Positions 228 to 60,792 of a DNA stretch of 64,000 bases are shown in pieces. Position numbers and translations under genes: made by a program. Within the stretch, counting starts at the first letter, position 1, and each line of letters begins with the position of its first letter. The notes under the pieces are model-generated. The model did not search any database and was not told where the DNA came from. It worked only from the letters and a program-made list of their open reading frames with translations. The DNA comes from Candidatus Borrarchaeum weybense (GTDB taxonomy: Archaea > Asgardarchaeota > Sifarchaeia > Borrarchaeales > Borrarchaeaceae): assembly GCA_019057385.1 (NCBI GenBank), contig JAHQJS010000007.1, positions 124,001 to 188,000 on the forward strand, in the 5' to 3' direction.

Positions 228-618
228 TTACCTCAAGGAGACCCCCCAACTTGTTGGGGGGAGGAATTGAGGTCGAGCGTTGCTCACACAACCCTTTCTG
301 CGGAGACAGGGGTTGGTGTACCCAACCTCGGGTGGTGTTTTAATGACGGGTACTCGCAAGTCCCGCCGCTCCCAACACCAAGGGAGTAGGTTCTCTTCGC
401 CAAAGTTATCAGTCAGTACTATACGATGATCACTGAGAGTTTCCTCTCTGTTTAAACCACCGTTTACAGAGCAAGGGACTAGAGAAGCATCCCTTGGTGT
501 GTTCTTTAACTCTCCTGATAACGTAGATACCGCCATATATATGACCTCTCTTAGGCTAATCAACCAATTACTCTCGCTCCTCACGGAACAAGCCCCCTTA
601 CTTGGTAGGGGGTGATTG
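228..618 (-). mobile_element. Miniature IS200/IS605-like element with terminal hairpins and possible omega-RNA-like right end
   Basis: Read on the minus strand, the element starts with a C5/G5 hairpin (plus positions 593-612) followed by GGGCTTGTTCCGTGAG. It ends with a perfect 9-bp hairpin (242-261, arms CCCCCCAAC and GTTGGGGGG) preceded by TCAATTCCTCC and followed by TCTCCTTGAGG. Subterminal hairpins and this right-end layout are, as I recall them, typical of archaeal IS200/IS605 transposons, whose right end doubles as the TnpB guide RNA. The GC-rich inner part (about 262-400) is full of short inverted repeats, as in an omega RNA scaffold. No TnpA or TnpB coding sequence remains; a 118-codon open frame inside has no recognisable domain. 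It looks like a deletion derivative or MITE. Confidence 0.55.
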
Positions 619-623
619 ACTGA

Positions 624-10108: not shown

Positions 10109-10927
10109 TTAAAATGTGGCATCTAAAGCCATAGTAGCTACTCCTAACTCAAGCGAGTCGTGAATTAAATTTTTACTTGTGAGTTTTTTGAGTGCCTTAC
10201 TAGTTAGACCTAGCGGGATCCCAGGAGCAACAACAAATGTATCTTCTTTTATCATATCTTCAGAAATAATGTCTGGCACTGGAGTTGCATCAACTATCAA
10301 ATTTGCATACCGCAATCCTTCTTTGATTGAGTGAACAATATGAACGCGATCTTTAAATTTACGTTTGGCATATCCAATCTTTACTTTATCAATATCATAT
10401 AGAACCACATTAGCGCATCTATCAAGTAATTCAATCGTAGCAGCTTGTCCTACGGGACCATATCCTATGATAAAAACAGTTTTACTTTTTATTCCCTTCG
10501 CTGCGAGATCCAATGCTGCGATATAAGCCTTTCCTGTACATGCAGAATTTTCAGAAACATAACGAGTTCTGAGATTAACTGCAATAAAATGATTATCATC
10601 CGCAGCGAATAAAACGTCTGCTTGTTTAGATATCGCTTCAGCGAAACCTCCAACGTCTTTTTTCTTGGTTATATAGGTATCTAAACCGATATGGGTTAAT
10701 ATGGCTAATATTGCATCAGTAAAACCTAGTATTGTGCCTTTTCCAGCAGTTATAGGTATTATTGCTGCAGTTTTCTTACTTAAAACTGAGGTGATATCAT
10801 TTCTAATGTTAAGAGTATGTTTTGCAATTCCTAATAAAGAATGTTCAGTTTTTTTAATCAGCTCTTGTTCATAGTTTTGTAAATCTATTGGGATATTTTT
10901 CACTTGTTCAGGAGTGAGGCGTGTCAT
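10109..10927 (-). CDS. pylD: Pyrrolysine synthase, PylD
   Basis: 272 residues, similar in length to Methanosarcina PylD (about 260). PylD is the NAD-dependent dehydrogenase that oxidises 3-methylornithyl-lysine and closes the pyrroline ring, the last step of pyrrolysine synthesis. Family landmarks are visible: the N-terminal IPITAGKGTILGFTDAI stretch, FAADDNHFIAVN, CTGKAYIAALD, the Rossmann loop VFIIGYGPVGQAA and a C-terminal VVAPGIPLGL. It is the third gene of a pylB-pylC-pylD run, starting 26 bases after pylC. ATG start; TAA stop. Confidence 0.93.
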   Translation of the reverse strand: MTRLTPEQVKNIPIDLQNYEQELIKKTEHSLLGIAKHTLNIRNDITSVLSKKTAAIIPITAGKGTILGFTDAILAILTHIGLDTYITKKKDVGGFAEAISKQADVLFAADDNHFIAVNLRTRYVSENSACTGKAYIAALDLAAKGIKSKTVFIIGYGPVGQAATIELLDRCANVVLYDIDKVKIGYAKRKFKDRVHIVHSIKEGLRYANLIVDATPVPDIISEDMIKEDTFVVAPGIPLGLTSKALKKLTSKNLIHDSLELGVATMALDATF

Positions 10928-10953: not shown

Positions 10954-12108
10954 TTAGTCAATATAGTTTGTAAGTTTAAACTCTGACATAATTTCACTAA
11001 TTACCGCAACCATTTTCTTTTTTGCCTCTTCTAGAGTTTTATCTCTGACAATTAGTGTTGCAACACGTTTTCCATCAGCATTATTGTTGCTAAAAAAGTT
11101 CGTAATGGCCTCATCTGCACCGAAAAATCCTAGTTTATGTGTTAGATTTTTAGCATCGGTCAGAATATGCTCGCCCTGAACCTTCAATGAATGGTCAACA
11201 ATGCAAACATGTTGATATACGACTCCCTTTTCAAAACCAACTTTATTCGATGACAAAGTGTTTTCAAGGAACATATTTGCAAGTTCCTTGACGATATTTA
11301 TGCCAGTAGAGTGAAAAACGACAGTAGGTGTTTGACTGGGTAATCTTGCATTTATTTCATTAGTTTTTAGTGAGTTAGAAGGAGAAACTATACTTTGCAC
11401 GTCTGTAAGTCCATGCAAGTTAAGACCTTTTGCGATTTTCAAACCAGTTTCGATAAATTTATTCTTAACATGATTCGAAAGAACTGTTGGCGCTGTTACT
11501 CTTTTACATCCATAAGATTCATCAAATTCCAAATCTGTAACTTGAAATGGTATCGAGTTTCCATTCTTTGCAAGAACTTCTAAAGAAACCGCAAGTCCTT
11601 CGACAAATTCTTCCACGATAACTTCGTGATCAATTTGTCTTACTTCATTTATAATGTGAGGTAATTGTGATGGTGTTGACACCTTAAAGATACTAATACT
11701 GCCACTCAAACGAGCAGGTTTTACTATTAGAGGAAATGTTGCATCAGGCCAAGGCTTCGGAACAGCAACGTGTTGACTTGTTAAAAAGTTTTTGGAGCGA
11801 GTCTTATTAGATGTTACCCAAAAAGCGTTAGTGTCTTGTAAAAAGTGTATCAGTCCCTTGCACGTCTTTTCCAGAAAAACAAGCGTTTTCATATTTTCAG
11901 TAGTTGGTAAAACTGCATCTACTGTTTTACAAATCTTCTTAAAGAGATTTTCTTGCTTTATCACGTCAAAAACATAATTTTCATCAACAATAGTAGAGGC
12001 AGGAGTATTAGGTTCTCTATCAATTAATATTGTAGTTATATCCGCCTTTTTCGCAAGATAGGCTGCTTCAAGTCCCTGTAAACGTCCACCTATCAAGGCT
12101 AACCTCAA
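10954..12108 (-). CDS. pylC: 3-methylornithine-L-lysine ligase, PylC
   Basis: 384 residues from the start chosen here. PylC is an ATP-grasp ligase that joins 3-methylornithine to the epsilon-amino group of lysine. The N-terminus reads LALIGGRLQGLEAAYLAKKA, matching the start of known PylC. Downstream come the ATP-grasp elements: FPLIVKPARLSGS, the acidic VIVEEFVEGLAVSLEV and the metal-binding EINARLPSQTPT segment. The TTG at 12108 is preferred because GAGGT lies about 8 bases upstream and overlaps the TGA of pylB. A longer frame from 12153 would overlap pylB and add 15 residues not found in the family. Ends in TAA. Confidence 0.93.
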   Translation of the reverse strand: MRLALIGGRLQGLEAAYLAKKADITTILIDREPNTPASTIVDENYVFDVIKQENLFKKICKTVDAVLPTTENMKTLVFLEKTCKGLIHFLQDTNAFWVTSNKTRSKNFLTSQHVAVPKPWPDATFPLIVKPARLSGSISIFKVSTPSQLPHIINEVRQIDHEVIVEEFVEGLAVSLEVLAKNGNSIPFQVTDLEFDESYGCKRVTAPTVLSNHVKNKFIETGLKIAKGLNLHGLTDVQSIVSPSNSLKTNEINARLPSQTPTVVFHSTGINIVKELANMFLENTLSSNKVGFEKGVVYQHVCIVDHSLKVQGEHILTDAKNLTHKLGFFGADEAITNFFSNNNADGKRVATLIVRDKTLEEAKKKMVAVISEIMSEFKLTNYID

Positions 12109-12118
12109 AATGATGACC

Positions 12119-13210
12119 TCAAGATAATCGTTTTCTTTGTTGGATGAATTCAATGTATTGATGTGTAGATGCTAGTTTTAATCCTATACTGTCTAAGTAC
12201 GGTTTAATAGTTTGAATGCTTCTAATTCCTTGATTAATTCCCAGATTAGCTGCTGCTACACCCAATAATCCTGATGTTTTTGGGATGAGGGAGGTGATCA
12301 CATTAGCCCCCACCAATAGACGTAATTGAAGCCCCTTTAAACCATCAATATCGAAAGAAGCCGGAATAAGTTTGTCTGGGCAAATTAAACGCAGAAGTGC
12401 AATAGACTTCATTTCCTCCAAGATTGGAGGCGAGATGTTTTGCTCCATTGGAGTTCCTTGTTGCGGTACAAATCCCATTACACGTACTTGATCTGCTCCA
12501 ATATCCTTGATGGTGAAAAACGAATTAATTCGATCTTCTTCTGATTCTCCTACACCTAGAAGAATACCCTCTTCTATTAATAAGCCCATTTCCTTAGCGA
12601 AAATTTTTGATTTCATCCGTTCGTCATAATCTTGATTAATACGCAATTTTGCGAAAAGTGCACGATTGTGTGTTTCTTGGTAAAGAGCATACCATTCTGC
12701 AATTTCAGCAATTTTCCTTAAAACATGTTTAGGGACAACTCCAGGAGAGACCATTAGTGGTAATTCTGTAGCCTCTTTCACAGTAGATAAAGCAGAAAGC
12801 AAACCTGAATAATTTGGCTTGAAAAAAAGTGGATCCTCTCCTGATGTCATATCGATTAAATGCACACCAGATTCTTTCAATTTTTCTGCTTGACTAATAA
12901 TTTCCTCAGGAGTTTTTCTGTAGCGTAGACATTTAGAATTTAGCTTCCTAAAATAGCAGAAACTGCAAGAATTTTTGCAATATGTTGTAAAATAGATGAA
13001 TCCATAAGCAAATACTTTATTTTCAAAATATCTTACACGGAGTTCATTAGCTGCAGAAAACAATGCAAAGATATCATTTGGATGGCTTGTTTTTAGTAAA
13101 TAAAGAGCATTCCGTCTATTCAGTTCTTCACCGTTTAATACTTCTCTTAAAATTTCATAGATCTTTGGGTCCTTTGGATTTGATTCAAAGGAGCTGAAAA
13201 AACTTTCCAT
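12119..13210 (-). CDS. pylB: 3-methylornithine synthase, PylB (radical SAM)
   Basis: 363 residues. PylB converts lysine to (3R)-3-methylornithine by radical SAM chemistry, the first step of pyrrolysine synthesis. The Fe-S ligands Cys78, Cys82 and Cys85 are in TTYCKNSCSFCYFRK, the usual CX3CX2C. Further landmarks are LIDMTSGEDPLFF, QETHNRALFAKLR and VRVMGFVPQQGTPM, all characteristic of PylB and the BioB/HydE-like subgroup. First of the pylBCD run; its TGA overlaps the pylC ribosome site, which implies translational coupling. The FluG-type amidohydrolase gene ends 101 bases upstream on the same strand. Confidence 0.95.
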   Translation of the reverse strand: MESFFSSFESNPKDPKIYEILREVLNGEELNRRNALYLLKTSHPNDIFALFSAANELRVRYFENKVFAYGFIYFTTYCKNSCSFCYFRKLNSKCLRYRKTPEEIISQAEKLKESGVHLIDMTSGEDPLFFKPNYSGLLSALSTVKEATELPLMVSPGVVPKHVLRKIAEIAEWYALYQETHNRALFAKLRINQDYDERMKSKIFAKEMGLLIEEGILLGVGESEEDRINSFFTIKDIGADQVRVMGFVPQQGTPMEQNISPPILEEMKSIALLRLICPDKLIPASFDIDGLKGLQLRLLVGANVITSLIPKTSGLLGVAAANLGINQGIRSIQTIKPYLDSIGLKLASTHQYIEFIQQRKRLS

Positions 13211-16831: not shown

Positions 16832-17878
16832 TTATTTGATGAGATAGATGTATTGACGTGTATCTCTTAATGAACTAGTTTTTATGATTAGATCATTTTT
16901 CAGTAGATAGTTTATACTAGATCGAACAGTTCTGGCAGGGAGCATAGTCATTTCGATAATCTCTTTTTGTGTTAAGCGACCTTCATATTTAAGAAGTGTG
17001 TGAATAAATTTAGCTGAAGGTGGAGCTGTTTTAGGCATTAAATCTATTGTTTCGTATTTCTTTCGTAATTTTTGAAAGATCTTTGAATTAACTTCCCTTT
17101 CGAGTCGAATGAAGTGTGCTGGAACTTCAGCCTTTGTTATGTTTATGATATCAGCATTCAAATCAACTCTTATTCTTCCATCAACAATTGCCTGACATTT
17201 TGATGAACTAGAGATATCTTTGATTGTTATCGTGCTCAAATTATTTACAATGAATGGTTTATGTGTTTGTTTTAAAGAACAAATAGGCACAATTACGAAT
17301 ACATTTGCCCCTTCCGATACAATAGGTCCTCCAGCTGAAAGTGCATAACCCGTTGATCCAGAGGGTGTTGAAATGATCACTCCATCAGCAGAATCACGCC
17401 ATATCAACTCGTCATCAATTATTAAAGCATATCTAATAACTGTAGCACTCATTTTGGCATTTACTGTCAATTCGTTAAGAGAGAATGGCAGATATTCACC
17501 ATTTATTTCTATAGCCAATCGTGTGCGTTCTTCTACAAAATAATTCTCTTTTTCGATCTCTAGTATGCTTTTTTCGAAGTTTTTGATATCAGTTTCTGCT
17601 AAGAACCCAATATCCCCGAAACTGACACCTAACACAGGAAGTTGGTTTCTATCTAACTCTCTAAAAGTTTTGAGTATGGTTGCAGCCCCTCCAATAGATA
17701 AAACCAAATCTGCTGTCATTTGACTTAATGGGTGTTCATCAAGGTCGATATTTAGTAATTTTGGGAGTCCTTCTTCTAATTCAATACTATGCTTCCTTTT
17801 TCTTAGAAATGCAATAATATCTTTAACATAATCGAGAATAAGAGCCTCATTCGAAGCACAGCTAATCCCAAATTTCAT
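16832..17878 (-). CDS. NAD-kinase-like protein with altered GGDGT motif and C-terminal winged helix
   Basis: 348 residues. Residues 1-260 follow the NAD kinase fold: the NE motif at Asn135-Glu136 (SLNELTV), VIISTPSGSTGYALSAGGP and the surrounding strands. The catalytic motif GGDGT is replaced by Gly63-Gly-Ala-Ala-Thr67, so the Asp normally used as catalytic base is missing. Residues about 265-348 add a winged helix-turn-helix (GRLTQKEIIEMTMLPARTVR, then a wing), absent from ordinary NAD kinases. This suggests either a divergent kinase or, more interestingly, a transcription factor that senses NAD(H) or NADP(H). It faces pncB tail to tail. ATG start, TAA stop. Confidence 0.75.
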   Translation of the reverse strand: MKFGISCASNEALILDYVKDIIAFLRKRKHSIELEEGLPKLLNIDLDEHPLSQMTADLVLSIGGAATILKTFRELDRNQLPVLGVSFGDIGFLAETDIKNFEKSILEIEKENYFVEERTRLAIEINGEYLPFSLNELTVNAKMSATVIRYALIIDDELIWRDSADGVIISTPSGSTGYALSAGGPIVSEGANVFVIVPICSLKQTHKPFIVNNLSTITIKDISSSSKCQAIVDGRIRVDLNADIINITKAEVPAHFIRLEREVNSKIFQKLRKKYETIDLMPKTAPPSAKFIHTLLKYEGRLTQKEIIEMTMLPARTVRSSINYLLKNDLIIKTSSLRDTRQYIYLIK

Positions 17879-18592: not shown

Positions 18593-19420
18593 CTAGATAT
18601 CTAATCGCCATCCGTTTAAATAACTTAGGCTACGACTAATACGCTTTATATTCTTGAAGTTTTCTTTTAACAGTATCAGTCGTTCAATTCCCACTCCAAT
18701 GCCAGCCCATGGTTCATAAACATTCCAATTTTTGTCTAGTGGATGAGGACCTATGGCGGCAGATGCTATTTCAACTCCTTCAATTGAGACGTCGATTGTT
18801 GTTCCATAAACTAACGAATCAACTTGATGTACCTTATATTCCTTTAACCCAACATTTTTCATAATTAGATCAATCATATAATTGATTCGTTTTTCAGGCT
18901 CTAATATGTCTCCATATTCAACAAGATTCATCATTGTGAATTCTTCAAGATGTTGTTGTCCTGTAGTTTCCTTTCTGAAACATTGTCCGATCTCGAATAT
19001 TTTCACTGGATTTACGAACTTCCTTAGTTGACTCATTAAATGATAAAGACCTGGAGCCAACATGGGACGTAGACAACGTGATTCATCGAGCCAAAAAATT
19101 TGTTTCCAAAGAGAATGGTTCTCTTTAATTTCCATACGTTTGATAAAACTCTTTGAAATGATCACTGGTGTCAATACCTCAACAAATCCTTCAGAAATTG
19201 CAGCTTTTTCAAGTGCTTGCTCAATGCGTTTCAATTCGGGTTTTTTAAACATTAAAAAATTCATTAGGTTTTCACGGTGATATTTTTCAAGTGATGTTGA
19301 TATTTCCTGAAAACGCTTGTCACGTTCGCTTTTCGTTTCAAAACTAAGTAAAAAAAATTCATCAGGAGCATCTAATTCCTTTAACCGTTGTTGTTGTGTT
19401 TTTGAAAAAATAAATGCCAT
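18593..19420 (-). CDS. pylSc: Pyrrolysyl-tRNA synthetase catalytic domain, PylSc
   Basis: 275 residues, the class II catalytic core only. It charges tRNA-Pyl with pyrrolysine. Motif 2 lies in CFRKETTG, motif 3 in GVGIERL. Pocket residues match M. mazei PylRS: Tyr126 (Y306), Asn165 (N346), Tyr205 (Y384) and Trp238 (W417). The equivalent of Cys348 is Val167, which alters the floor of the pocket. The tRNA-binding N-domain is a separate gene 20 bases upstream, as in bacteria and some non-methanosarcinal archaea. Its own stop codon is TAG (18593-18595), the codon its product helps decode. Readthrough would add 31 residues before TAG-TGA. ATG start. Confidence 0.96.
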   Translation of the reverse strand: MAFIFSKTQQQRLKELDAPDEFFLLSFETKSERDKRFQEISTSLEKYHRENLMNFLMFKKPELKRIEQALEKAAISEGFVEVLTPVIISKSFIKRMEIKENHSLWKQIFWLDESRCLRPMLAPGLYHLMSQLRKFVNPVKIFEIGQCFRKETTGQQHLEEFTMMNLVEYGDILEPEKRINYMIDLIMKNVGLKEYKVHQVDSLVYGTTIDVSIEGVEIASAAIGPHPLDKNWNVYEPWAGIGVGIERLILLKENFKNIKRISRSLSYLNGWRLDI

Positions 19421-19440: not shown

Positions 19441-19725
19441 TTATTTAAATTTGCGTAAGAATTTAGAGAGCCTCCAGTTTTGAATGTCACATGTCTTGCA
19501 AATCTTTCTAGCCCATCCTCTTCTTAACCATCGTGCAGCGCGGCTTCTTCTTGAATTTCGTGTTAAAATAGACTTATTACAAACTGTCTCTATTTTAAGA
19601 TAAGATCCTGCTATTGAAACATTCTTAACTCCATGAAGTGTTCCGCTTCTTGAAGTCCACAATTTGATCTTTTGTAAGAGTTCATTGAGAGGTGGTCGCT
19701 TTTCTCGAGCTAATTTTATAGTCAA
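19441..19725 (-). CDS. pylSn: Pyrrolysyl-tRNA synthetase N-terminal tRNA-binding protein, PylSn
   Basis: 94 residues, matching the N-terminal domain of methanosarcinal PylRS. WTSRSGTLHGVKN corresponds to the family's WMSRTGTIHKIK, and NSRRSRAARWLRRG to the conserved basic helix. Zinc ligands are all in place: His31, Cys49, Cys76 and Cys79. It binds the variable-loop/T-loop face of tRNA-Pyl and aids charging by PylSc. The start is TTG at 19725 with GGAGG seven bases upstream. That site lies within 11 bases of the tRNA 3' end, so tRNA-Pyl, pylSn and pylSc probably form one transcript. TAA stop. Confidence 0.96.
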   Translation of the reverse strand: MTIKLAREKRPPLNELLQKIKLWTSRSGTLHGVKNVSIAGSYLKIETVCNKSILTRNSRRSRAARWLRRGWARKICKTCDIQNWRLSKFLRKFK

Positions 19726-19743
19726 AAACTTTCCTCCAACAAG

Positions 19744-19811
19744 CGAAGGCCCCGGGAGTTGAACCCGGCTACAAGGGCTTAGGACCCCTGCGGTCTTTCC
19801 GACCGGCCTCC
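19744..19811 (-). tRNA. pylT: tRNA-Pyl (anticodon CUA)
   Basis: A 68-nt cloverleaf can be drawn. Acceptor stem GGAGGCC pairs with GGCCTTC (one G-U). The D stem GGTC/GACC has a 5-nt loop. The anticodon stem is 6 bp, CAGGGG/CCCTTG (one G-U), with loop TCCTAAG giving anticodon CTA. The variable loop is 3 nt (TAG), the T stem CCGGG/CCCGG, and the discriminator G73. CCA is not encoded. The 6-bp anticodon stem, 3-nt variable loop and small D-loop are hallmarks of tRNA-Pyl. Unusual points: position 33 is C instead of the near-universal U, and there is no nucleotide between acceptor and D stems if the D stem has 4 bp, as in Methanomassiliicoccales tRNA-Pyl. Confidence 0.93.
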
Positions 19812-26907: not shown

Positions 26908-27555
26908 CTGAGCAATGAACAATTGTTTGAAGGTATTAAAAATTCCATAATTGACCTAGATAGAGAAGAGTGCCTTAGATTAGCACAAGAAGCTCTTGAT
27001 GCTGGAATTAATCCACTTGAAGTTATTGAGAATGGACTAAAGAAAGGAATTCAGATTGTTGGAACGAAGTATGAAGAAGGTGAGTTGTTTATAGTAGATT
27101 TGATGATGGCAGCATCAGCTATGAAAGCTGCAGTCGAACTCCTTGAGCCCCATATTTCGTCAGAAATGAAAGAAAAGGCTAGTGCTGGGAAGATTATTAT
27201 TGGAACAGTTGAGGGCGACATTCATGATATAGGAAAGACCATTGTGTCAACCTTATTAGCTGCCAATGGTTTCGAAGTAATCGATTTAGGTTCAGAAGTA
27301 CCTGCCTCAAAATTTATAGAAAAGATCAAGGAACTCAAACCAGATATCGTTGGAATGTCTGCGCTCCTAACAACTACGATGCCAAAAATGCAGGAAGTTA
27401 TTGAAGCGCTCGAAAAAGAAGACTTGCGTGATGCAGTAAAGGTTATGATAGGAGGGGCTCCTGTTACAAAGGAATTTGCAGCAAAGATTGGTGCAGATGG
27501 CTATGCTAAGGATGCGGAAGAAGCTATAAAATGGGCTAAAGAGCTTGCCTCTTAA
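26908..27555 (+). CDS. mtbC: Dimethylamine corrinoid protein, MtbC
   Basis: 215 residues from a CTG start. A helical cap (residues 1-90) is followed by a B12-binding Rossmann domain. The cobalt-ligating DxHxxG motif is present as GDIHDIGKT, with the later GSEVP, MSALLTTTMPKM and GGAPV stretches typical of MtmC/MtbC/MttC. It carries methyl groups from MtbB to a methyl-accepting partner not in the window. The CTG at 26908 is chosen: AAAGGAGG ends about 7 bases upstream, and the residues SNEQLFEGIKNSI then align with the N-termini of family members. The next in-frame start (TTG 26923) is too far from the site. TAA stop. Confidence 0.92.
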   Translation: MSNEQLFEGIKNSIIDLDREECLRLAQEALDAGINPLEVIENGLKKGIQIVGTKYEEGELFIVDLMMAASAMKAAVELLEPHISSEMKEKASAGKIIIGTVEGDIHDIGKTIVSTLLAANGFEVIDLGSEVPASKFIEKIKELKPDIVGMSALLTTTMPKMQEVIEALEKEDLRDAVKVMIGGAPVTKEFAAKIGADGYAKDAEEAIKWAKELAS

Positions 27556-27755: not shown

Positions 27756-29159
27756 TTGACCGAATTCACAATGCGTACTGGTACGGGAAAACCGTTATAC
27801 ATGTCTAAAGAACAAATTCGGTCAGACCTCGAAGACGGTGCAAACTGGGCTGCAACAAAAGCAAAGATACCAGAACTGTCAGCTAATGAAATAGATCATA
27901 TCCTTGATATACTCGTGAGACCAGGAAGACAAATTGGAGTTGAACAAGGAAAAGAAATTGTTTTAACTACAGATGGCGGCACCACAAGATATACAGGTAT
28001 TTGCAGATACTCAGCTATGCCTGTATCAAGAGAACAGGCTGTAATAATCGGAGAACGTTTCATTGGTTTCGATACGTTTGAAATTGGACACGCTGACTAC
28101 AGTTTTAGACCAGTAAAAACAATTGCTATGGATGAGGCAACAGTAATCGAGAATACAGAACTTAACAGTGTGATTCCAGTATTCTATGGAGCAATGCCTA
28201 ACCTAGGAATCTATTTCCAATCGCAAGGTGGGAAATGGCCATCTCCTACAGATTTCATGAACGAAGGTAAGATTGACGAGGCAAGGGCGGTTCAAGAGTC
28301 TGCTGCAGAAGATATGACTAATGACATAGTCTACGTAGCAAAAATCTTCGCGGAGACTGGTCTTGACGGTCTTGATATAGATACTACTGCTGCTGCTGGT
28401 GATGCAGATTTCTATGGAACTTTAAAAGCCATTGAGATAATAAAAAAGGAAACTAATTTAGCACTAGAGGTTGGCATGGCTGGCGAAAAAGTATTTGGAT
28501 TACATGCAGATCTTAAATATGATGGTGAACGATTAGCAGGTATGTGGCCACATCAACAAAGTTTGATGGTAGAAAAGGCAGGTGGAGATCTCTTTGGTGC
28601 TGTCATTAATACAGACACAGGTAAATCTTGTCCGTGGAATTTAGCCCGTTCGATAACTTTTGTTAAGGAGGTTATGAAGACAGTCAGTATTCCGGTGCAT
28701 CCTAACATGGGAATGGGTGTCGGTGGAATCCCTATGTGCGAAGTTATTCCAATGGATGTCGTCACTCGATCTGGTGTTGCAATGGTAGAACTTACTAATT
28801 GTGATGGCGTATAGGTAGGAACAGGAGACCCTGTTGGTATGGATTTGGCTTATCGGATGAGCATTGGAATGGGAGGCATCGGCACAGCAGGTGATATAGT
28901 AGCACGCCTTCAAATGACTAAGAGAATGAAACTTGACGCTGCCAAGGAATTTGTTGCTAAAAAATTAGGTGTTGATCAATTCACGCTTCACGATACTCTT
29001 CAAATGAGAGATCTTCGCGATGAACTTGAGCTTGGTTCTGTTACCGCACTTCCAGGAAAGGCCAAAGGTATTGAGGCAAAAGCTAGAATCGCAGATCTGT
29101 TTGATATTAAAATCAATTCTGTGGAAAGGCTTAAGAAGAAACTTTCTTTAGACTTTTAG
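27756..29159 (+). CDS. mtbB: Dimethylamine:corrinoid methyltransferase, MtbB, with in-frame UAG (pyrrolysine)
   Basis: 467 residues if the TAG at 28812-28814 is read as pyrrolysine at position 353. It moves a methyl group from dimethylamine to MtbC. Family landmarks: FYGAMPNLGIYF, DIDTTAAAGDADFYGT, GMAGEKVFGLHADL, WPHQQSLMVEKAGG, SCPWNLARS and HPNMGMGVGGIPM. Around the UAG the sequence NCDGV-Pyl-VGTGDPVGM matches M. barkeri MtbB (VDGI-Pyl-IGVGDPLGM), and homology continues to the C-terminus. TTG start with AGGAGGT eight bases upstream. The terminal stop is also TAG; reading it too would add only 9 residues before TGA. Confidence 0.96.
28812..28814 (+). other. UAG sense codon (pyrrolysine 353 of MtbB)
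   Basis: Family homology runs unbroken across this TAG, and the window encodes all five Pyl proteins (PylB, C, D, Sn, Sc) and tRNA-Pyl. Five bases downstream a 6-bp hairpin, AACAGG/CCTGTT with loop AGAC (28820-28835), could act like the proposed PYLIS element. The codons for GTGDP by themselves may explain it. Confidence 0.93.
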
Positions 29160-29163
29160 CATA

Positions 29164-29248
29164 GTGCTGGCAACGAAATCAACTGAAAGATCGGCAAGGC
29201 TTGATTGGGTTGATTTCAGATGGGCTCACCCCCGCAAGGGGTCAGCAC
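29164..29248 (+). ncRNA. Structured GC-rich element downstream of mtbB (unknown RNA or repeat remnant)
   Basis: The 85 bases fold on paper into a closed structure. The outer stem is GTGCTG (29164) with CAGCAC (29243). Inside is a 9-bp perfect arm, GAAATCAAC (29175) with GTTGATTTC (29209), carrying an upper stem ATCGGC/GCTTGAT with one bulge. A C4/G4 hairpin with loop CGCAA lies at 29230-29241. It is clearly richer in GC than its surroundings. Candidates: a 3'-UTR RNA of mtbB, a guide RNA, or a fragment of an insertion sequence. The strand is unknown; plus is listed only because it follows mtbB. Confidence 0.4.
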
Positions 29249-58518: not shown

Positions 58519-60312
58519 TTGACACTCTTATATAGATCAATAATAACTTCGGAGGAATCAATAACATCGATTTCAAGAAACCCGGTATCCTTGAAGTATG
58601 AATCCAGAACTTCTAAGGATACATTAAACGAATGGGATACTCTAGGCGCTTTTCAATACGAATCATCTCCGGGCTGGAATGTATACCCCCTTAATAAAAG
58701 TCGCCATCTTTTGGGAACTGGACAAGATACTTTTACGATACGATACCGTGATACACAACCAGATGGAAATCCTCCTACTATTCTTATTGACGTTGTTGAA
58801 GTGAGGACATTTTCTGATCCCGCCTCTTATGACTTAGATCTGTATTACGTCTTCAAATGGGCTGAAACTGGGAATGAAAAGAATATAAGCATTTATGATG
58901 TGAGGTACGGAAATCAAGATATAGAATTGTGTATTAAAGATTTTGATGGTAATCAATGGGTGTCTATGCCGCCTAATGCTACTTCTATTGAGGCTGCTTA
59001 TACAAATCATACATATATTATTAATACTAACCTCGGAAGTTATATTAGCGGGACTAACGAAATTTGGATAAGATATAATGAGATAGATAGTTCAAGCTCA
59101 GCATCATTAAACGTAGACTACTTAGGAGTGAATATTCATTGTGTTACAGGAATAAACCAACAAGCAGATATTGTATACGATTTTGAGGATTTCCCGGGCG
59201 ATAGGATAGCAGTCACGCAAATCAGGGTTCATGATTCTTCATTCGTAAATGATTCATCCGCGAACATTGAAGTACAACTTTTTGATTATGCAAATTATCA
59301 GTGGGTTTCCTGTTTTAATATAAATGAAACCATCGAAACCTCTCATACAGCCACTTTTTCCTCATTTCCTAGTAATTTCATCAGCAGTAACCCTGGAAAT
59401 ATTCAAATTCGTTACGTATTCAATGGTAATATGCCTGTCATCGTGAATGTGGATTATTTACAAGTTGATATTACTTCCACAAGCCAGAATGGGGGAGGTG
59501 GAGGAGGAGGCATAGATGGTGGTGATGACAGTGGTGACAGTGGAAGTGGAGGGAATGGAGGAGGAACAAGCCAACAAACTCTTATCTCGTCTATCGTTTA
59601 TCCCGAAGAAATAGAAAAATACTGCGACGCTGAGGTTGACGTGATTCTAACCGACGAGGAAGGTTCTTTTGTAAGCAATGCAAATGTTACGCTTACCATT
59701 GAAAACATCACAGAACCTCTTTCTATGATTGAAAAAGATGATTATTACACGATTCTAATTGATACTGACAATCTTGACACTGGAAATTACAACTTTACAG
59801 TTTATGCAATAAGATCTGGATATAAAGATTTTATCTCATCCGCATTTCCATTTAGAATTATTGTTTCTTATCCGTTTTTAACTGCGATTCAGCACCCTTC
59901 ATATTTCTTACAATTGATGGAAAATCCAACCTCTTTGTTATTAGATCCGACATTCTATATTATACCTTCTCTAATTTTGTTTGGAATAACACTTCAAGTC
60001 ACGACTTTTGCGCAAATCAACCCGAAGAAACTTCATTCAATTTATATATTTACATCTGGAGGCCATGGCATTTATTACAGATCCTTCGGCAGAGAAGGAG
60101 TTGATAGTCCATTAATGAGTGCTGCGCTATCGGGAATTGTAAATCTTGTCATGGAAGCAACTCAAAGCGAAAAGCCAACTCACACAATAGATCAAAAAAC
60201 CTTTGATATATTTCTAGAATATGGACGCGTTCTTACGGTAGCTCTCTTTGTTGAAAAAGGAACTTTGAATAAAAGAAAAATACGAAATGCAGAAAAAAGA
60301 TTGGTAGAATAG
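58519..60312 (+). CDS. Surface protein with C-terminal membrane helix and longin/roadblock-like cytoplasmic domain (N-terminally short)
   Basis: 597 residues. Repeated beta-sandwich-like segments (residues 50-320), a Gly/Asp/Ser-rich linker (about 330-350), an Ig-like domain (YPEEIEKYCDAEVDVILTDE onward), then a membrane helix (FYIIPSLILFGITLQVTTFA, about 480-500). A cytoplasmic domain follows: SIYIFTSGGHGIYYRSFG, LMSAALSGIVNLVMEA and FLEYGRVLTVALFVEK. That pattern is like archaeal longin/roadblock domains that serve small GTPases. Unlike the paralog at 61217 it has no signal peptide, so its 5' end seems lost. TTG start. It ends in TAG, and the next gene follows in the same frame. Confidence 0.7.
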   Translation: MTLLYRSIITSEESITSISRNPVSLKYESRTSKDTLNEWDTLGAFQYESSPGWNVYPLNKSRHLLGTGQDTFTIRYRDTQPDGNPPTILIDVVEVRTFSDPASYDLDLYYVFKWAETGNEKNISIYDVRYGNQDIELCIKDFDGNQWVSMPPNATSIEAAYTNHTYIINTNLGSYISGTNEIWIRYNEIDSSSSASLNVDYLGVNIHCVTGINQQADIVYDFEDFPGDRIAVTQIRVHDSSFVNDSSANIEVQLFDYANYQWVSCFNINETIETSHTATFSSFPSNFISSNPGNIQIRYVFNGNMPVIVNVDYLQVDITSTSQNGGGGGGGIDGGDDSGDSGSGGNGGGTSQQTLISSIVYPEEIEKYCDAEVDVILTDEEGSFVSNANVTLTIENITEPLSMIEKDDYYTILIDTDNLDTGNYNFTVYAIRSGYKDFISSAFPFRIIVSYPFLTAIQHPSYFLQLMENPTSLLLDPTFYIIPSLILFGITLQVTTFAQINPKKLHSIYIFTSGGHGIYYRSFGREGVDSPLMSAALSGIVNLVMEATQSEKPTHTIDQKTFDIFLEYGRVLTVALFVEKGTLNKRKIRNAEKRLVE

Positions 60313-60318
60313 ATTGAA

Positions 60319-60792
60319 ATGAAGTATGAGAACATTCTCATGAACTGGAATGGTGATTTAAGTTTCTTTTATGAGTTGGATCAACTTGTGTTTGATACCT
60401 TTGACTTTAGAGTGACAAAAGACTTGACGAAACTGATATTTGATGCCGCAAAGGTGCAAGAAAGTATTGTAGAATTATACGCGAGCCAGGAGAAGTATCA
60501 AATTTGTGGTGCTGCCTTATGGAAAGCCTACGACTTACACGCTAAAATCAACAGTCCGCGCAAGCGCTTTGTCTTAGAGAGTTGGCAGGCACTTGAGAAG
60601 GCATTTCTCGTAGATCATATTCCGCCTAAAACTGAGTTACAGCATCAGTTATTAAATCTATTTTTTGCCATACTGGATTTGGTAAAAACTCCTTGGCTGC
60701 TTAAAATTCTTTTTAAAATTCGGGGTTTGATATATCCTGAGGTTTCAAAGGAGCTATATTACTTCATCCCTCCAGAAAAGATATTGAAATAA
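60319..60792 (+). CDS. Hypothetical helical protein, in frame with the preceding gene across a UAG
   Basis: 157 residues, predicted helical, with many aromatics (DLSFFYELDQLVFDTFDF) and a hydrophobic segment LLNLFFAILDLVKTPWLL. No family recognised. Its ATG lies six bases after the TAG of the surface-protein gene and is in the same frame, with no stop between. It may be translated separately or, if UAG is decoded, as a C-terminal extension. TAA stop. Confidence 0.55.
   Translation: MKYENILMNWNGDLSFFYELDQLVFDTFDFRVTKDLTKLIFDAAKVQESIVELYASQEKYQICGAALWKAYDLHAKINSPRKRFVLESWQALEKAFLVDHIPPKTELQHQLLNLFFAILDLVKTPWLLKILFKIRGLIYPEVSKELYYFIPPEKILK

Follow-up and report, generated by a model that had tools for sequence, protein, structure and literature searches.

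The tRNA-Pyl gene (pylT) of the Borrarchaeum-type Asgard archaeon studied here encodes C instead of U at position 33, directly before the CUA anticodon, and a second species of the genus keeps the same base. We propose that the C33 loop weakens the decoding of UAG by a tRNA that still works and thereby protects UAG stop codons, a reading to which we would assign a probability of roughly one half. Asgard archaea are relatives of the ancestors of eukaryotic cells, and pyrrolysine (Pyl), the 22nd amino acid, is read at UAG. A Pyl system has already been published for the Sifarchaeia (Borrarchaeota) by Sun et al. in 2021 (PMC9723677), and the available text of that description leaves open how the UAGs for Pyl are distinguished from those for termination. 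The tRNA reported here is a variant of a known tRNA within this system, and its C33 is a testable link to that question. Because the change is natural, specific to a lineage and located where the anticodon loop is most conserved, it makes for a concrete and simple test, and an amber-decoding tRNA that naturally has C33 would be useful for genetic code expansion work.

The tRNA-Pyl gene and its anticodon loop

The host genome comprises 4.18 Mb in 8 contigs, of which a stretch of 64,000 nucleotides, the window, holds the features collected in Table 1. ARAGORN calls a tRNA-Pyl(CTA) at 19743-19811 (-), and the gene matches a covariance model built from other tRNA-Pyl genes, without its own sequence, at 65.5 bits (E 3e-12); the M. 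barkeri and D. hafniense sequences were used solely in the alignment and among the sequences of the model. The cloverleaf is the minimum-free-energy fold (z -3.75) of an RNA that reads, from 5' to 3', GGAGGCC, GGUC GGAAA GACC, G, CAGGGG UCCUAAG CCCUUG, UAG, CCGGG UUCAACU CCCGG, GGCCUUC and G73, with a 6-bp anticodon stem, a 3-nt variable loop, a short 5-nt D loop and no encoded CCA. The G73 discriminator and the G1:C72 pair are both present, as are the T-stem pair G51:C63 and A37, identity elements of M. barkeri tRNA-Pyl (PMC7609411). U33, a listed though contested identity element of the same tRNA, is absent, both Borrarchaeum species having C33. Since base 33 of tRNA-Pyl receives no contact from D. 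hafniense PylRS (PMC7609411), U33 is not treated here as defining for tRNA-Pyl.

The anticodon loop runs U32 C33 C34 U35 A36 A37 G38, with U32 at 19784, C33 at 19783 (G on the plus strand), the anticodon at 19780-19782, A37 at 19779 and G38 at 19778. An earlier, sequence-only reading had claimed a C33 tRNA-Pyl, and this observation is confirmed in two species; the range it gave for inspection, 19775-19782, stops one base short of the residue, and it passed over U32 and G38, which also deviate from the usual Pyl loop CUCUAAA. U32 and G38 can form a wobble pair, and RNAfold does pair them, predicting a loop of 5 nt. Restoration of U33 by a shift of the anticodon loop was considered and rejected, as no alternative pairing was found. 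The missing linker between the acceptor and D stems, also claimed earlier, is 0 nt given a 4-bp D stem and is conserved in both species, while a D stem of only 3 bp, in which G8 would serve as the linker, is a possible alternative. With a 4-bp D stem, then, the 1-nt linker of PylSn-type tRNAs is absent from the Borrarchaeum tRNA; because it is also absent in Methanomethylophilaceae tRNA-Pyl, it is not defining for tRNA-Pyl overall.

All 14 other tRNA-Pyl genes found have U33, namely eight from Methanomethylophilaceae or other Thermoplasmata (L023-L030), one from a genome of the phylum of Methanomethylicus (L065) and five from genomes of a Desulfobacterota search (L069, L070, L071, L073 and L095); in Methanomethylicus itself, neither of two search methods found a tRNA-Pyl. 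The Borrarchaeum tRNA shares with those of the PylSn type (Methanosarcina, Desulfitobacterium, L065 and the Desulfobacterota-search five) the CUA anticodon, the 6-bp anticodon stem, the 3-nt variable loop, G73, G1:C72 and, except for L065, A37; however, the latter have U33 and a 1-nt linker, whereas it has C33, U32, G38 and no linker. In the Methanomethylophilaceae tRNAs, the D stem likewise follows the acceptor stem directly, but they differ in having U33, a 5-bp anticodon stem and a longer variable region, and the two genomes of this family that were checked (G061 and G062) lack PylSn. The combination of a missing linker with PylSn, which the earlier reading had singled out, therefore stands, the other no-linker tRNAs found being of the Methanomethylophilaceae type and the other PylSn-type ones having the 1-nt linker. 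The L065 tRNA shares its anticodon stem with Borrarchaeum but has the loop CUCUAUC, in which U37 and C38 replace A37 and A38.

The host genome is a single metagenome-derived assembly, which might suggest a sequencing or assembly error at base 33. However, the separate assembly of its nearest named match, Candidatus Borrarchaeum yapensis, has C, not T, at this position, and the claim survives the comparison with relatives. Its tRNA-Pyl has an identical anticodon loop and differs at 3 of 68 nt, two in or beside the D loop and a third in the anticodon stem, where G:U becomes G:C with pairing kept, while the pylSc genes of the two species differ at 41% of fourfold sites and their products at 18% of residues (about 81% identical). 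Because the loop is identical in spite of this divergence, an error is rejected, its likelihood being next to nil, and C33 is therefore real and long-lasting, within one genus.

Further, tRNA-Pyl is the sole non-U33 tRNA among those of the host chromosome that ARAGORN could place, intron-bearing ones being placed less surely. DNA and covariance-model searches of the host genome (150 of 165 candidates scored) found this one tRNA-Pyl only, and thus no second copy with U33. Neither tRNA-Pyl nor PylS was found in two other congeners, G001 (76% complete) and G002 (69% complete), which probably reflects incompleteness, since G001 carries mtbB with an in-frame UAG. A separate observation concerns a 179-kb contig binned with the host genome, a T4-like phage contig (Gp23, Gp20, S77 protease) whose tRNAs have C33 in Pro(UGG) and Thr(UGU) and A33 in Glu(UUC), and which also encodes RtcB and a Thoeris-inhibitor-like Tad3 domain.

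The pyrrolysine genes and mtbB

Table 1. Coordinates of the Pyl genes, their target gene and neighbouring features in the window.
Feature	Position	Strand	Basis
pylD	10109..10927	-	TIGR03911, 244 bits (cut-off 150)
pylC	10954..12153	-	TIGR03909, 325 bits (cut-off 248)
pylB, methylornithine synthase	12119..13210	-	TIGR03910, 415 bits (cut-off 348)
NAD kinase, between pylSc and pylBCD	16832-17878	-	
pylSc, PylRS catalytic protein, separate gene	18593..19420	-	TIGR02367, 281 bits (cut-off 178)
pylSn, PylRS N-terminal tRNA-binding protein, separate gene right after pylT	19441..19725	-	TIGR03912, 104 bits (cut-off 51)
pylT, tRNA-Pyl (CUA)	19744..19811	-	ARAGORN; covariance model; fold; relatives
mtbC-type corrinoid protein	26923..27555	+	TIGR02370, 242 bits (cut-off 215)
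mtbB, dimethylamine methyltransferase	27756..29159	+	Halves on either side of the UAG match TIGR02368
Structured RNA block of 86 nt (probable), directly 3' of the mtbB UAG stop	29163..29248	+	Conservation in congeners

Judged by its gene content, the Borrarchaeum Pyl system looks functional, because it comprises pylT-pylSn-pylSc, pylB, pylC, pylD and an mtbB with a conserved in-frame UAG; the tRNA gene adjoins the pylS genes, and mtbB provides a UAG-containing target in the same genome. The pylSc product aligns over nearly its whole length with D. hafniense PylSc in the PDB (E 4e-74), the conserved catalytic blocks being present. The in-frame UAG for Pyl in mtbB is codon 353 (28812-28814), and the gene's own stop is a UAG as well (29157-29159, +). 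The internal UAG is kept in G001 and the UAG stop in both G001 and G002, hence in three genomes with the host. MtbB is 96% identical to that of G001 before the internal UAG and 94% after it, and on both sides the changes fall mostly at third codon positions.

This arrangement agrees with that of the Sifarchaeia in the available text of the 2021 description, where pylT lies upstream of pylS, pylBCD lies about 6 kb off with an NAD kinase between, the tRNA has no encoded CCA and mtbB is the only Pyl gene (PMC9723677). The same text presents the tRNA as a classic cloverleaf, without mention of C33, U32, G38 or the missing linker, and is silent on the UAG stop of mtbB and the RNA block 3' of it. 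It also reports other Asgard archaea with tRNA-Pyl genes but without PylS, a precedent for regarding pylT as a relic in decay or as an RNA that does not decode. In the host, however, the cloverleaf is intact, the stem change is compensating, the pyl set is complete, and mtbB keeps its in-frame UAG within a protein strongly conserved on both sides, all of which makes a relic very improbable.

Frequent UAG stops and the proposed effect of C33

The sequence-only reading had also held that UAG is a common stop in this genome, and this is borne out: UAG ends 78 of 389 sampled, mechanically called ORFs in 564 kb of chromosome (20.1%, close to the 23% background share of the triplet), and the available text of PMC9723677 gives 21% for the Sifarchaeia. 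Selection against UAG readthrough was considered and rejected, as a second in-frame stop is no commoner after UAG than after UAA or UGA (within 10 codons at 49%, 53% and 50%, respectively). Some housekeeping neighbours share one open frame with only a UAG between them, for example the NuoD-like and NuoH-like genes at L135:4982-7117 (-), which readthrough would fuse. Taken together, the absence of an excess of backup stops, the UAG between in-frame genes and an mtbB that itself ends in UAG thus give no sign of guarding against readthrough. Candidates for further in-frame UAG genes, taken as long open frames to either side of the codon, are not commoner for UAG than for UAA or UGA (14, 14 and 17). 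Five longer UAG candidates were checked, and three of them look like separate neighbouring genes because their two sides belong to different protein families, while the other two may be either separate genes or read-through ones. Elsewhere in the window (58519-60792, +), a 597-aa ORF is followed by UAG and then, still in frame, by a second ORF of 157 aa without a Pfam match, so that this UAG may or may not be read through.

The loop sequence, its conservation, the intact Pyl gene set and the dual use of UAG are directly established, and from them the following scheme may be drawn. In the Borrarchaeum lineage, the anticodon loop would have changed from CUCUAAA to UCCUAAG, with the tRNA still working. 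PylRS (PylSn and PylSc) ignores the anticodon; therefore, C33 should affect the ribosome step and charging little. C33 would be unable to form the N3-H to phosphate contact on which a normal U-turn relies, and a U32:G38 pair may make the loop tighter. Decoding of UAG would then be weaker than with U33, yet sufficient for some full-length MtbB, and the release factor would prevail over so weak a decoder at the many UAG stops.

Several precedents bear on this scheme. Amber readthrough in E. coli falls when U33 of M. barkeri tRNA-Pyl is mutated (PMC11467909, PMC7609411), U33C in yeast tRNA-Gln gives a phenotype of poor decoding (PMC3664417), and G33 lowers decoding by Candida tRNA-Ser(CAG) (PMC1991585, PMC11415595). 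The Candida tRNA also serves a reassigned codon without U33, which curbs its decoding, but it has G and not C at position 33, reads a sense codon and belongs to a eukaryote, and no shared origin with the Borrarchaeum tRNA-Pyl is implied. On balance, our analysis favours a lower decoding efficiency; that selection kept C33 for weaker decoding is less certain than the weaker decoding itself. The chain from C33 through weaker decoding to protected termination is plausible, fitting both the precedents and the absence of backup stops, and C33 may help explain how UAG still serves as a normal stop codon for roughly one gene in five. The interpretation offered by the sequence-only reading is, overall, partly supported.

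In some older suppression assays, the effects of C33 were mild. A serious, if tentative, alternative is that C33 is simply tolerated, the tRNA decoding UAG about as well as one with U33 and the stops being protected otherwise, by expression of the pyl genes only with methylamines, by codon context or by low Pyl-tRNA. Functional initiator tRNAs with C33 exist, as in mammals (PMC8080527), conditional expression was proposed by the 2021 authors in the available text (PMC9723677), and the conserved RNA block 3' of the mtbB UAG would also suit this alternative. Moreover, frequent UAG stops do not require C33, since Pyl-using bacteria also have many of them, according to the available part of the same source, and among the tRNA-Pyl genes collected here the bacterial ones carry U33. 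Against mere tolerance, positions 32, 33 and 38 jointly differ from those of every other tRNA-Pyl found, and elsewhere a loop of the U33 type persists, both across phyla and among the remaining readable tRNAs of the host. C33 could nonetheless be a neutral fixed change, since the independent tRNA sequences are only two, both from one genus.

C-to-U editing of tRNA exists in archaea, where CDAT8 converts C8 to U8 in Methanopyrus tRNAs, and a comparable post-transcriptional conversion of C33, yielding U33 or a U-like base, would make the loop normal again. However, a search for the PF00383 fold in the host and B. yapensis genomes found no CDAT8-type deaminase-THUMP fusion, and U32 and G38 would stay odd even after editing. 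Editing of C33 is decidedly unlikely, because the sole PF00383 deaminase that the search of these genomes turned up is short, resembles dCMP deaminase and has no THUMP domain.

A conserved block after mtbB

The 86-nt block that directly follows the UAG stop of mtbB is 98% identical in G001 and 95% in G002, while the sequence beyond it is unalignable and mtbB itself differs from that of G001 at 30% of fourfold sites. A contig of B. yapensis ends in the block, whose 3' half is present there and matches at 43 of 43 bases. The block can fold into an inner stem of 9 bp, a stem that closes the structure and a small hairpin; with its flanks, it folds only moderately better than shuffles (z -2.2), the differences among copies being too few for a covariation test. 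A search of 55 other Asgard genomes did not find it, and a model of it (R2) matches only the known copies of the genus. A repeat or mobile element was rejected, as the block is single-copy in the genome and its exact pattern is absent from viral contigs; an H/ACA RNA, a SECIS or a known riboswitch was likewise rejected, there being no Rfam match and no clear match by eye.

The block is probably a structured RNA and, as a candidate cis element, may serve in regulation, in stability or as a UAG-handling signal. SECIS elements in archaea act from the 3' UTR, and a SECIS-like, two-part separation can be envisaged, in which a U-turn-weakened tRNA-Pyl would leave UAG as a stop by default and the block would raise internal Pyl insertion or secure final termination. 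We regard such a division of labour as unlikely, though if the block does take part, it would be a site-specific pyrrolysine signal of a kind not established before. Finally, the window also contains a HEARO RNA (Rfam RF02033, 134 bits) at 386-620 (-), which adjoins an 801-aa ORF.
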